Shown one piece after another: positions 69 to 4,854 of a stretch of 5,951 nucleotides of DNA. Under the pieces are notes generated by a model. That model did no database searches. It had not been told where the DNA came from and worked only from the letters and a program-made list of their open reading frames with translations. Source of the stretch: Rhodospirillales bacterium (GTDB lineage: Bacteria; Pseudomonadota; Alphaproteobacteria; Rhodospirillales; Casp-alpha2); contig JABJOR010000468.1 of NCBI GenBank assembly GCA_018664265.1, positions 1-5,951 on the forward strand, in the 5' to 3' direction. Both the position numbers and the translations under genes were made by a program. Position 1 is the first letter of the stretch. Each line of letters starts with the position of its first letter.

Positions 69-98
69 AAAAAAAAACCGGACCACAATAGGGTCCGG
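69..98 (-). terminator. Intrinsic terminator of the sRNA
   Basis: On the minus strand a 7-bp stem (CCGGACC at 98-92 with GGTCCGG at 84-78) encloses a 7-nt loop and is followed at once by nine T residues (77-69). It defines the 3' end of the predicted sRNA. There is no U-tract on the plus strand, so it works in one direction only. Confidence 0.9.
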
Positions 99-204
99 CG
101 AGTTTAAACAGGGAGGCTTCACGTCTGGGAGACGAGGGAACTTTGCAGTTCCCACACCCAGGCAGGGGCCTGGGCGGAAGTTGATGCTGCAATGCAACAT
201 CGAT
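69..204 (-). ncRNA. abcR: Predicted AbcR-like (alpha-r15-type) trans-acting sRNA
   Basis: About 136 nt read on the minus strand. Four consecutive hairpins are visible: 201-183 (8 bp, one G.U, loop AUU), 174-157 (7 bp, loop CCCU), 153-136 (7 bp, GNRA loop GCAA) and 134-122 (5 bp, loop CCC). Then come an unpaired stretch with CCTCCCT at 116-110 and an intrinsic terminator. The GNRA loop, terminator and promoter all agree on the minus strand. The C-rich loops and CCTCCCT are anti-Shine-Dalgarno elements, as in the Hfq-dependent AbcR sRNAs that repress ABC-transporter and other mRNAs. In Sinorhizobium, as I recall, the AbcR genes lie next to lsrB, and here the RNA follows an lsrB-like gene on the same strand. 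No long protein frame with family character exists here. An sRNA is well supported; AbcR identity rests on synteny and motifs. The related mmgR/suhB (alpha-r8) family, which also carries an unpaired CCUCCCU, is the main alternative. Confidence 0.75.
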
Positions 205-211
205 GAAAAGG

Positions 212-240
212 AATATAGTTGGAGATAATAAAGATGAGAA
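212..240 (-). promoter_or_regulatory. Predicted sigma-70-type promoter of the sRNA
   Basis: On the minus strand TTCTCA (240-235, four of six matches to TTGACA) is separated by 17 bp from TATATT (217-212, five of six matches to TATAAT). The likely transcription start is the A at 204, a few bases before the first hairpin. The weak -35 fits a promoter that needs an activator, and LysR-type boxes lie directly upstream. Confidence 0.6.
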
Positions 241-249
241 GAAGAAATC

Positions 250-277
250 ATGCAATCCTGCCATGCACGAAACGCAT
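250..277 (-). promoter_or_regulatory. Two overlapping LysR-type T-N11-A boxes upstream of the sRNA
   Basis: Read on the minus strand, 277-263 is ATGC-N7-GCAT, a perfect interrupted dyad of T-N11-A form, centred near -66 from the predicted sRNA start. The second, 264-250, is ATGG-N7-GCAT, one base pair short of perfect, centred near -53. This recognition-site plus activation-site layout is typical of LysR-family activated promoters. The likely binder is the adjacent lysR product, by inference. Confidence 0.55.
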
Positions 278-307: not shown

Positions 308-1210
308 TTACTTATTTTTTGGCAAATCCGACTGCATGCGATGAATTAAGAAATCACGGAATGCTTTGATACGCGCTGATTCACGAAGCTCTACCGGATA
401 CACAAAATATACATCCAAATTTGGTCCACGAATCTCCGGAAGGACTTCAACCAACGTTCCGACTTCTTTACTCATGTAATCCGGCACAGCCCCGATACCA
501 ACACCGCTTTCAACAGCCCTGAAAATTCCATAAATGCTGTTCACCTTCAAAACAGGCTTTCGTGGCGGACTGTTTTCCGGACGACCAACAGTCAATAGCC
601 AATTCAAATTAGAAACAGGGGGTCTGGCATCTTCTCCATAGACAACAAGATTATGATCATCCAGATCCTTTGGGGTCTTGGGCATGCCATATTTTGCCAG
701 ATAATCTGGAGAGGCATATACATGGTATCCGATTTTCATCAAGCTACGCTGTATCAGGTCTTGTTGTTTTGGAGGCTCCATTCGAATAGCGATATCAGCT
801 TCACGCATGGAAAGATCAAGCTCGGTATCAGCAAGAACCAGAGAGATATCAATTTCTGGATAAAGCGAGATAAATTCGCTCATTCGGGATGTTAGCCAAA
901 CCGAGCCAAAAGCTACGGTCGTTGTTACTTTCAGATTTCCACTTGGAATTTCCTTACTCTCACTAATCTGGGCCTGAACGATTGCCAGCTTTGCAAACAC
1001 ATCATGGACTGTGGTGTAGAGCAAATCTCCCTGCTCGGTAAGGTGAAGGCCGCGTGCATGGCGGTGAAATAAAGGAACCTTAAGGCTTTCCTCCAATGCA
1101 CTGACTTGTCGGCTGACAGCAGACTGGCTCAGATTCAAGGATTCCCCAGCATGGGTAAAGCTACCCGCTTCGGCGACTTTATGAAAAATTCTGAGTTTGT
1201 CCCAATCCAT
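308..1210 (-). CDS. lsrB: LysR-family transcriptional regulator, LsrB/VtlR-like
   Basis: A 300-residue DNA-binding regulator of normal LysR length. Residues 2-61 form the winged HTH (FHKVAEAGSFTHAG, then SQSAVSRQVSALE and LFHR), and about 90-293 form the periplasmic-binding-protein-like effector domain. The ATG at 1210 has a modest AGAAG eight bases upstream. The gene begins 33 bp after the trxB stop on the same strand, so the two probably share a transcript. This trxB-lysR order matches LsrB of Sinorhizobium and VtlR of Brucella and Agrobacterium, which act on AbcR-type sRNAs; here a matching sRNA and LysR boxes lie just downstream. Unlike rhizobial LsrB, for which redox-active cysteines have been reported, this protein has no cysteine. 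LysR membership is certain; the LsrB assignment rests on context and overall character. Confidence 0.85.
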   Translation of the reverse strand: MDWDKLRIFHKVAEAGSFTHAGESLNLSQSAVSRQVSALEESLKVPLFHRHARGLHLTEQGDLLYTTVHDVFAKLAIVQAQISESKEIPSGNLKVTTTVAFGSVWLTSRMSEFISLYPEIDISLVLADTELDLSMREADIAIRMEPPKQQDLIQRSLMKIGYHVYASPDYLAKYGMPKTPKDLDDHNLVVYGEDARPPVSNLNWLLTVGRPENSPPRKPVLKVNSIYGIFRAVESGVGIGAVPDYMSKEVGTLVEVLPEIRGPNLDVYFVYPVELRESARIKAFRDFLIHRMQSDLPKNK

Positions 1211-1243: not shown

Positions 1244-2212
1244 TTATTGCGCAGCTTGATCTGTGGCTACATCGAGATGCCCTAGGTATCGTTCGGCTTC
1301 AAGAGCACTCATACAACCGGTTCCTGCTGCGGTAATCGCCTGACGATAAATTTTGTCTTGCACGTCACCTGCTGCAAAGATCCCTGTTATATTTGTTTTC
1401 GTGCTACCAGGCTGAGTTACAATATAGCCTTCTTCATCAAGTGTAATCTGGCCAGAAAATAATTCCGTATTGGGCTTATGCCCGATAGCAACAAACACGC
1501 CATCAACATCAATTTTACTGATCACGCCTGTTTTTACATTTCGTAAATTTGCGCCCGTTACACCGGGGGGCATATCCTGGCCAATGACTTCATCCAGCAC
1601 ACTATCCCAAACAACGTCAATTTTATCATTTGCGAATAAACGGTCCTGCATAATTTTTTCAGCACGTAATCCATCACGGCGATGAACCAGCGTTACTTTG
1701 GATGCAAAATTTGTCAGGTACAGAGCTTCTTCAACAGCCGTATTTCCGCCACCGATCACACAGACTGGTTTATCTTTATAAAAGAAACCATCACAGGTTG
1801 CGCACGCAGATACGCCAAAGCCCTGAAATTTCTGTTCACTTTCAAGTCCAAGCCAACGCGCTGTTGCTCCGGTTGCTATAATTGCCACATCACCCGTATA
1901 AACTGTTCCACTATCGCCAACAGCTTCAAACGGGCGTTTTGAAAAATCTACGCTCATGATAGTATCTTCAATCATTTCAGCGCCAACAGCATTAGCCTGA
2001 GCCTGCATTTGTTCCATCAACCACGGCCCTTGAATAGGTCCTGCAAAACCTGGATAATTTTCAACGTCCGTAGTAATGGTCATCTGTCCACCAGGCTGCA
2101 TGCCCCTAATCAAGCGTGGAGACAAATTTGCCCGGGCTGAATATATTGCAGCCGTATATCCGGCTGCACCGGAGCCGATAATCAACACCTTGCTGTGCAG
2201 GTTTTCCGCCAT
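1244..2212 (-). CDS. trxB: Thioredoxin-disulfide reductase (NADPH)
   Basis: A cytoplasmic homodimeric FAD flavoenzyme of 322 residues that passes electrons from NADPH to thioredoxin. Visible in order: the N-terminal FAD Rossmann motif GSGAAG (13-18), the PGGQM segment (40-44), the redox-active CATC site (C137 and C140, followed by D141), the NADPH fold GGGNTA (154-159) with HRR (177-179) for the NADP phosphate, and the second FAD motif GIFAAGD (277-283) with RQAITAAG (290-297). All catalytic elements are intact and the length is standard for the low-molecular-weight bacterial class. The ATG at 2212 is preceded by AAGGA at 2228-2224. The gene is divergent from the Lrp/AsnC gene and heads a likely trxB-lysR operon. 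Confidence 0.97.
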
Positions 2213-3582: not shown

Positions 3583-4854
3583 ATGGATAAAATTCTAATT
3601 GTCGAAGATGCAAATTTCTTTTCGAAGATTCTATCAACAAGCATCAATAAAAAATTGGGACTACCGGTCATTGTTGCCAAATCCATGGCCGAGGCAAAAA
3701 GCCATATAGCCAATCACGGACGCGACATTGTTCTCTCACTTTTAGATCTCAACTTGCCGGATGCTCCAAATGGCGAAATTGTCGACTATGTTCACAGCCA
3801 GGCAATACCGTCTATTGTTTTCACCTCTTTGCTTGATGACGATATGCGAGAAACCATCATCGCAAAAAATGTTATCGATTATGTCTTAAAAGATAACCCT
3901 TCCAGTGTTGATTACCTGACATCCCTGGTTAAACGCATCATTAATAACAGAAGTCTTACAGCTCTGGTTGTTGATGATTCATCAACCTCTCGAAAGCTTT
4001 ATCACAAATTCCTGACGAACTACCAATTCAGAGTCCTTGAAGCCAGTGATGGCGAGGAGGCTTTGAAAATCATTCACGATTCTAAAACAACTACCGGTAA
4101 TGCCATTTCGCTGATTATTACAGATTTTTCCATGCCCAACATGGATGGCTGCGAGCTGATCAGAGAAATCAGAAAAGATTATTCAAAAGACAAAATGGTC
4201 ATTATTGGTGTTTCGGCGTCAGGCAATAACAAATTGTCATCAAAATTCATCAAGACCGGAGCCAATGACTTCCTCAGCAAACCTTTCTTCCCGGAAGAGC
4301 TATTGTGCCGCGTGTCCCAAAACATAGACAACATGGAACACCTTCTCGCATTAGAGAAGCTGGCATCTTATGACTACCTCACAGGACTTGGGAACAGGCG
4401 CCTATTTTTTGATCAGGCAACGCCTTTGCTGGCATCTGCAAAACGTAAAGAAACCGATATAGCCTTAGCCATGCTGGATATTGATCATTTTAAATCCATT
4501 AACGACACCTATGGCCATGATATAGGGGACGTTGTTCTAAAAGCTCTTGGCGAAACGCTGACATCGGCCCTGCGGGCAACGGATGTGGTTGCGCGCATGG
4601 GGGGCGAAGAATTTGTTATCATCACACCCGATATCTCTGCTGATAAATTGCCAGAATTTCTGGATAAAATTCGCGTAAGAATTTCAGAATTATCCTTCGA
4701 GGCTGAAGGCAAAAGTTTCAGCATTACAGCAAGCTTTGGTGCCATAAATTATCCAGTCGATAACCTTGAAGAAATGATCAGGTTAGCCGATGAAGCGCTT
4801 TATGAATCCAAAAATAGCGGCCGTGACAGAGTGACAATTACAGGCACAGCTTAA
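3583..4854 (+). CDS. PleD-like response regulator diguanylate cyclase (REC-REC-GGDEF)
   Basis: A 423-residue soluble protein that should make cyclic di-GMP from two GTP. REC1 (about 1-122) has the acidic pair E8/D9, phosphoacceptor D55, T81 and K103. REC2 (about 126-245) has D131/D132, phosphoacceptor D181 in a TDFSMPNMDG motif, S211 and K233. A short helical linker (about 249-262) leads to the GGDEF domain (263-418): DYLTGLGNRR, metal ligands around LDIDHFK (D299), and the active GGEEF (340-344). The RxxD inhibitory site (R331-D334) lies five residues before it, so product feedback is expected. Both receivers keep their aspartates, whereas only the first does the signalling in PleD. No histidine kinase is nearby, so the input is unknown. 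No signal peptide or membrane segment is visible. The gene stops 3 bp from the convergent greA stop. Confidence 0.95.
   Translation: MDKILIVEDANFFSKILSTSINKKLGLPVIVAKSMAEAKSHIANHGRDIVLSLLDLNLPDAPNGEIVDYVHSQAIPSIVFTSLLDDDMRETIIAKNVIDYVLKDNPSSVDYLTSLVKRIINNRSLTALVVDDSSTSRKLYHKFLTNYQFRVLEASDGEEALKIIHDSKTTTGNAISLIITDFSMPNMDGCELIREIRKDYSKDKMVIIGVSASGNNKLSSKFIKTGANDFLSKPFFPEELLCRVSQNIDNMEHLLALEKLASYDYLTGLGNRRLFFDQATPLLASAKRKETDIALAMLDIDHFKSINDTYGHDIGDVVLKALGETLTSALRATDVVARMGGEEFVIITPDISADKLPEFLDKIRVRISELSFEAEGKSFSITASFGAINYPVDNLEEMIRLADEALYESKNSGRDRVTITGTA

Follow-up and report, generated by a model that had tools for sequence, protein, structure and literature searches.

Does the gene-free stretch that follows the lysR gene of this contig encode a small regulatory RNA and, if so, how does that RNA relate to the families already described in Alphaproteobacteria? 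The window, by which we mean the whole stretch of 5,951 nucleotides analyzed here, makes up the whole of contig C280, from a genome in 603 contigs that is 78% complete, and its minus strand reads trxB, lysR and then the gene-free stretch. A preliminary description had placed an unannotated RNA of 136 nt at this position and considered it a likely orthologue of AbcR. Our own reading, to which we assign a probability of roughly 0.78, is that positions 204 to 69 hold the gene for a predicted RNA of about 136 nt, likely activated by the LysR protein, that would shut off the translation of solute-binding proteins at their ribosome-binding sites.

The order trxB-lysR-RNA is that of the AbcR locus, in keeping with the earlier remark that the segment follows an lsrB-like gene, and on the strength of this synteny we infer that the LysR protein is an orthologue of VtlR/LsrB. 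The window holds a single copy of the RNA, and the contig stops 68 nt beyond it. Among open reading frames of at least 80 aa, only one overlaps the segment, an 88-aa frame truncated by the contig end, which we take to be spurious. Elsewhere in the window, positions 3583-4854 encode a 423-aa protein with receiver-type and GGDEF domains, for which the CbrR and PleD models are nearest, both below cut-off, and greA (window 5340), given a TTG start in the list of reading frames, more probably begins at an ATG three codons further on.

Folded as a single sequence, the minus strand between 69 and 215 reaches -60.2 kcal/mol, against -34.4 (sd 3.3) for shuffled versions (z -7.76, with 0 of 200 as good), and forms five hairpins, here called HP1 to HP4 and the terminator. 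The heavily base-paired minus strand with a terminator at its end, the GNRA loop (GCAA, in HP3), the anti-Shine-Dalgarno segment before the terminator (CCUCCCU, following HP4) and the excess of hairpins over the three-stem AbcR RNAs had all been noticed beforehand, and each is borne out. Inverted repeats fold well on either strand, as would be expected of palindromic or repeat DNA with no RNA function. However, the minus strand is clearly the better folded of the two (z -3.8 for the plus strand of the segment), the U tract and the seed make sense on the minus strand only, and an unpaired segment is among the most conserved parts; we consider a mere DNA repeat hardly credible.

Comparison of five close genomes revealed two-sided compensation in HP2, HP3 and the terminator, at 13 of 34 counted pairs and with 162 of 163 cells paired, the terminator being counted in four of the five because G020 ends at a contig edge. 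The arms for these counts were chosen by the analyst from single folds, since HP2, HP3 and some terminators are misaligned between groups by MAFFT. The compensatory changes that the preliminary description had proposed looking for in relatives are thus present. HP1 and HP4 display no covariation within the five close genomes; the HP4 stem is kept with changed letters in the diverged copies L136, L288, L289, L308 and L309. A covariance model, R1, was built from HP4, the CCUCCCUGU segment and the terminator of 26 family sequences, the window's included. HP4 and the single strand that follows it are almost letter-identical in relatives, and also in most of the class-level loci matched by the model. 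A pattern scan for the exact core, among the matches listed, yielded 119 loci in named organisms (hereafter named loci); the pattern fixes most of the core by construction, and the letters it leaves free also hardly vary. In G014, the HP4 loop plus its closing U reads UCCUCCC.

Table 1. Coordinates of the predicted RNA, its parts and its neighbors within the window, with the basis for each assignment.
Feature	Positions	Strand	Basis
trxB, thioredoxin reductase, conserved neighbor	1244..2212	-	TIGR01292, 406 bits
lysR, vtlR/lsrB type, predicted activator	308..1210	-	Open reading frame and family scan; trxB-vtlR-abcR order reported in A. tumefaciens (PMC7486931)
Predicted VtlR (LysR) binding palindrome ATGCG-TTTCG-TGCAT, about -73 to -59	263..277	-	Exact match to ATGCR-N5-YGCAT
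Published VtlR/LsrB half-box GCAT-N3-TG-N3-T, 6 of 7 fixed bases, about -62 to -50	254..266	-	Sequence; box as reported in PMC8844928
-10-like element TATATT	212..217	-	Sequence; TATATT-like in several relatives
Predicted gene for a small RNA of about 136 nt, starting near 204 and ending in U tract	69..204	-	Fold z -7.76; same place in relatives; model R1 86.4 bits (not independent, as the window sequence is one of the 26 used to build R1)
HP1, 5' hairpin AUGUUGC-AUU-GCAGCAU, conserved	184..200	-	Fold; 77-82 nt after palindrome start in 20 named loci
HP2, covarying hairpin	155..176	-	Two-sided changes in 4 of 8 pairs, five genomes
HP3, covarying hairpin, GCAA (GNRA) loop	136..153	-	Two-sided changes in 3 of 7 pairs, five genomes
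HP4, CGUCU-CCC-AGACG with CUCCCA, nearly invariant	122..134	-	Fold and relatives; AbcR M1 reported as CUCCCA (PMC5461406)
Single-stranded targeting segment GAAGCCUCCCUGUUUAAACUC (predicted)	100..120	-	Unpaired in fold; hardly varies as far as CCUCCCUGU; its complement stands at ribosome-binding sites of solute-binding-protein genes
Terminator stem	78..98	-	Fold; two-sided changes in 6 of 7 pairs, four genomes
Nine-U tract of terminator	69..77	-	

The RNA and the LysR gene are both widespread. The RNA segment was found in 41 of 48 family genomes (blastn, E<=0.1; some of these matches are to sibling RNAs only) and the LysR gene in 43 of the 48 (E<=1e-40). Of the genomes sampled, R1 finds a match in 187 of 199 from the order (E<=0.01) and in 135 of 289 from the class (E<=0.001); both counts take in weaker sibling copies, and that for the order also takes in genomes from which the model was made. 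The LysR gene was recognized in 139 class genomes (E<=1e-90). At least 78 of these have an R1 match on the same strand no more than 1.5 kb past the gene (median distance 228.5 nt), a minimum figure because the matches listed covered 122 of the 135 genomes. Another 21 have their listed R1 match at other places only, which makes 99 with both gene and match, and for the remaining 40 of the 139 no R1 match is among those listed. When 20 VtlR-downstream loci from these 40 were searched with filters off, five degenerate copies emerged, the weakest at E 0.02. Seen from the side of the RNA, and among the matches listed, a LysR gene stands within 1.5 kb upstream at 91 of the 119 named loci (median 221 nt), 13 of the 119 are untestable for LysR, and 15 (15 of the 106 testable) have no LysR gene upstream. 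The suggestion that the window RNA might be a lone divergent member of its family gives way here to a widespread set of vtlR-linked RNAs.

Among the matches listed, the named carriers include Azospirillum, Thalassospira, Magnetovibrio, Kiloniella, Nisaea, Inquilinus, Roseomonas, Reyranella, Minwuia, Micavibrio and Caedibacter, and belong mostly to Rhodospirillales, Acetobacteraceae and their neighbors; a plasmid collection gave one match, in Tistrella mobilis. The core is also present in two records labelled 'Rhizobium sp. Q54', a label that may not give the true family. In three loci of one genus (L127-L129, from G256, G384 and G481), about 5 kb separate the RNA from the LysR gene, with both on the same strand. 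Several other genera have tandem copies at the LysR locus. In one family, R1 matches after the LysR gene number three in L308 (G390), three, one of them weak, in L309 (G486), and two in L310 (G264); these tandem stretches contain further UCUCCCA or CUUCCUCCCAG hairpins and, judged by eye, GCAT-type boxes between the copies.

The sequence upstream of the RNA suggests how its transcription might be controlled. From the TATATT at 217-212 a start near 204 is predicted, in agreement with the 5' boundary assigned in the preliminary description. This box falls within a promoter-like hit at 240-212, of a kind that the promoter scan finds no more often than in shuffled sequences. For S. meliloti abcR1, a VtlR/LsrB half-box has been described between -61 and -49 (PMC8844928; also PMC7486931). 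This half-box alone is a weak discriminator (exact in 23 of 105 named loci among the matches listed versus 3 in shuffles), and a fuller palindrome, which contains the start of the half-box, was therefore sought. Among the matches listed, the exact palindrome occurs upstream in 62 of 105 named loci, against 0.1 in shuffles, and with at most one mismatch in 81 of 105, against 5.5; the 105 are the named loci, out of 119, whose upstream sequence extends to 400 nt or more, and the shuffle values are means of ten dinucleotide-shuffled sets. Where both elements were recognized, in 20 named loci among the matches listed, the palindrome starts 77-82 nt before the HP1 stem. Judging from the sequence, the LysR protein likely binds this palindrome and activates the RNA.

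The predicted RNA begins only about 100 nt past the lysR stop codon and on the same strand, a position that would also suit a 3' UTR of the lysR transcript that ends in an elaborate terminator and holds no independent RNA. This seems very unlikely to us, as a -10-like box and a palindrome held at that steady distance intervene between lysR and the RNA, and the core occurs without LysR upstream in the 15 testable loci mentioned above, among the matches listed.

The single-stranded segment offers a route to the possible targets of an independent RNA, as AACAGGGAG is the complement of CUCCCUGUU. The pattern AACAGGGAG-N4-12-ATG has six sites in the genome of the window, and all six open reading frames match Pfam solute-binding families. 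Across nine genomes we counted 60 AACAGGGAG sites and 42 open reading frames of at least 100 aa, 24 of which encode solute-binding proteins (three of the TRAP type). By genome, the solute-binding fraction is 6/6 in the window's own, 6/7 in G014, 2/4 in G012, 3/9 in G015, 1/2 in G037, 0/3 in G042, 1/4 in G024, 2/4 in G031 and 3/3 in G022, giving 14 of 17 in the three closest genomes versus 10 of 25 in the other six. G042 carries the RNA, yet none of its three AACAGGGAG-site frames is solute-binding.

Two controls indicate how far this enrichment exceeds that expected of any strong ribosome-binding site. A one-base variant, AACAAGGAG, which keeps a strong Shine-Dalgarno sequence, precedes solute-binding frames in 4 of 27 cases (44 of 49 sites examined, five being without a locus; 25 of 50 families assigned by scan and the rest by eye). 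For ACAAGGGAG, composed of the same letters and with the same AGGGAG, the figure is 1 of 13 (all 23 sites, none of them in the window's genome; ten of the 13 frames scanned and the rest judged by eye), and two more frames are other parts of ABC systems (ABC_trans_aux and MlaC) that were not scored as solute-binding. Set against both controls pooled (5/40), 24/42 gives a Fisher p of 2e-5, a value to be read with the caveat that targets in related genomes are partly orthologous and hence not independent observations. Computed duplex energies were left out because they favor targets over controls by construction. G021, from the same family, has no LysR gene at E<=1e-40 and only sibling-type copies of the RNA, the best at 40 bits; of its AACAGGGAG-site frames 3 of 10 are solute-binding and a fourth is a TRAP permease. 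The difference from 24/42 is not significant (p 0.12), and this natural control is not decisive.

Sibling RNAs elsewhere in the same genomes share CCUCCCUGUU, and the target signal can therefore not be credited to the window copy alone; the window RNA and its siblings may have a common regulon. These siblings (L062-L076, and L462 at G000:C329:9355-9407 in the window's own genome) share a CCUCCCUGUU-type segment and a terminator, without HP4. CRP/FNR-like dyads of the form TGTGA-N6-TCAC were seen by eye before five of them (L063, L064, L072, L075 and L076).

No Rfam threshold was reached in the window, where SorX scored 25.5 bits (46.6 needed) and suhB/mmgR (RF00519) 21.4 bits (41 needed), and the αr15 model (RF02345) gave no match even at E<=10; the covariance-model comparison with αr15 and suhB/mmgR suggested in the preliminary description accordingly went against membership of either. 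Among 94 other loci scanned (17, 18, 20, 20 and 19), a single one, L312, passes an sRNA threshold (1658-1727, SorX, 47.0 bits against 46.6), suhB remains below threshold in every one, and L299 holds a tRNA. An αr15 search of the 289 class genomes found none, but found none in 14 control genomes either, and is uninformative on the spread of that family. BjrC1505, considered as a relative, was dropped at 14.5 bits in the window. SorX (RF02784), from Rhodobacter, has a hairpin, a CCUCCCUGUU segment and a terminator, as does the window RNA, for which it gives the best Rfam score, and SorX and the vtlR-linked RNAs may constitute one superfamily. A further motif, CUCCCUGU, is known from SmelC671 (PMC3927594).

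One alternative is that the RNA is a copy of αr8, the family of mmgR and SisA-D (suhB, RF00519), which stands beside lysR but serves in feast/famine control at large and has no particular connection with the LysR protein. This would account for several of our observations: the suhB/mmgR model aligns over its full length in the window and rises to 40.6 bits (threshold 41) in L129, the nearest of the other loci, and RNAs with the same seed occur elsewhere in the genomes. Published accounts describe αr8 as a terminator plus a single-stranded UUUCCUCCCU after a weak hairpin, often multi-copy and reported from all Alphaproteobacteria except Rickettsiales, and report that Caulobacter SisA represses many membrane-transport genes (PMC12559287). 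The window RNA shares the hairpin, the CCUCCCU single strand and the terminator, while the UUU that precedes CCUCCCU in the αr8 10-mer reads AAG here. However, three extra hairpins stand at the 5' end, HP4 is far more conserved than a 'weak hairpin', and suhB falls short of its threshold in the window as in the 94 other loci. Moreover, the main αr8 copy adjoins an N-formylglutamate amidohydrolase gene, whereas the window RNA has lysR and trxB as neighbors, its other side being cut by the contig end, and a recurring link to LysR and a palindrome is not among the αr8 traits in those parts of the published accounts available to us. An αr8 copy of this kind strikes us as unlikely, and the survey behind the αr8 distribution may already include some vtlR-linked copies.

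Our preferred reading, that of a LysR-activated RNA directed at uptake genes, builds on computed features: the fold, the compensation in HP2, HP3 and the terminator, the nearly invariant HP4-CCUCCCUGU core, the place after lysR, the palindrome and the match of the seed complement to ribosome-binding sites. In this model, the LysR protein, as an orthologue of VtlR/LsrB, would bind the palindrome and activate the RNA, which would be transcribed from the minus strand. The CCUCCCUGUU segment, together with the CUCCCA of HP4 once that hairpin has opened, would then pair with AACAGGGAG-type sites, possibly helped by an RNA chaperone such as Hfq, and the blocked ribosome-binding sites of uptake genes would result in repression. 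A closely similar arrangement has been reported in rhizobia and their relatives, where VtlR/LsrB controls AbcR and AbcR silences transporter mRNAs through anti-Shine-Dalgarno motifs (PMC7486931, PMC8844928, PMC3712013); the A. tumefaciens genes stand as trxB-vtlR-abcR1-abcR2, with VtlR as an activator of AbcR1 (PMC7486931).

The AbcR-type control circuit has been studied in rhizobia, Agrobacterium and Brucella, but its origin is probably earlier, and its distribution much wider, than these groups suggest. Going further, we lean slightly towards an ancestral alphaproteobacterial circuit in which a trxB-adjacent, VtlR-type LysR protein acts on an ATGCR-N5-YGCAT operator to switch on an RNA whose nearly invariant core measures about 26 nt and which silences solute-binding proteins; rhizobial AbcR would be a late, diverged branch, and same-seed siblings under other regulators (some with CRP-like boxes) would converge on the same uptake genes. 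The AbcR RNAs of rhizobia, Agrobacterium and Brucella bear on life with a host. If our proposal is correct, the same circuit operates in free-living Alphaproteobacteria of soil and sea, among them Thalassospira, Azospirillum, Magnetovibrio and numerous uncultured lineages, and its original job was to rank nutrient uptake, perhaps by redox state, an idea suggested by the adjoining trxB. The core model, operator and target motif supplied here make each link testable in culturable species. In the open-access literature, surveyed mostly at the level of listings, we found no publication on AbcR or a vtlR-linked RNA outside Rhizobiales; in the accessible text of an Azospirillum brasilense sRNA survey, AbcR is named only in a reference (PMC7685610).

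It remains to consider whether the window RNA is an orthologue of AbcR1/2 in the strict sense, that is, whether one ancestral RNA occupied this locus and αr15 represents its diverged rhizobial branch. Such common descent is compatible with our preferred reading and would add to it, and we give it even odds. Our comparison draws on the Rfam model, the locus and published descriptions, and no Rhizobiaceae AbcR locus was recognized among the VtlR-downstream loci retrieved. The αr15 model does not match, and for this reason we do not file the window RNA in the Rfam αr15 family; αr15 has partial homology to SuhB (PMC7143759) and is described for Rhizobiaceae and Brucellaceae (PMC3712013), whereas the named carriers here, among the matches listed, lie mostly elsewhere. 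AbcR1 and AbcR2 of S. meliloti have three hairpins in 114-121 nt, compared with five in about 136 nt for the window RNA. The AbcR motifs M1, CUCCCA, and M2, GUUCCC, were defined in Brucella (PMC5461406). M2 lies between hairpins 1 and 2 of AbcR, where the window RNA has CCUCCCUGU instead; GUUCCC occurs in the window RNA only within a paired arm of HP3, and is not preserved in G014, G020, G013 and G012. In the degenerate copies L288 and L289, which likewise follow the LysR gene, the HP4 loop is altered and GAGCUUCCCU replaces GAAGCCUCCCU; they are possible intermediates towards the GUUCCC of AbcR. Common descent would also fit the degenerate copies at other VtlR loci (L288, L289 and L299) and the tandem copies in other genera, which recall abcR1/abcR2.

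The proposal of an AbcR orthologue in the preliminary description therefore stands in part: the locus, the compensatory changes in relatives, the anti-Shine-Dalgarno segment, the VtlR-type box and the predicted solute-binding targets speak for it, and the αr15 model, M2 and the three-hairpin plan against. We predict that the window RNA works like rhizobial AbcR1, with which it shares its locus, and the label that suits it best is that of a vtlR-linked, AbcR-like RNA from a widespread set that falls below threshold in Rfam 15. Like AbcR1 and AbcR2 (αr15) of Sinorhizobium, Agrobacterium and Brucella, it lies downstream of trxB-vtlR/lsrB on the same strand, has a VtlR half-box at almost the same distance, carries the anti-Shine-Dalgarno M1 motif CUCCCA in a hairpin and an A/U-rich segment before the terminator, and is predicted to act on the same class of targets, the solute-binding proteins.
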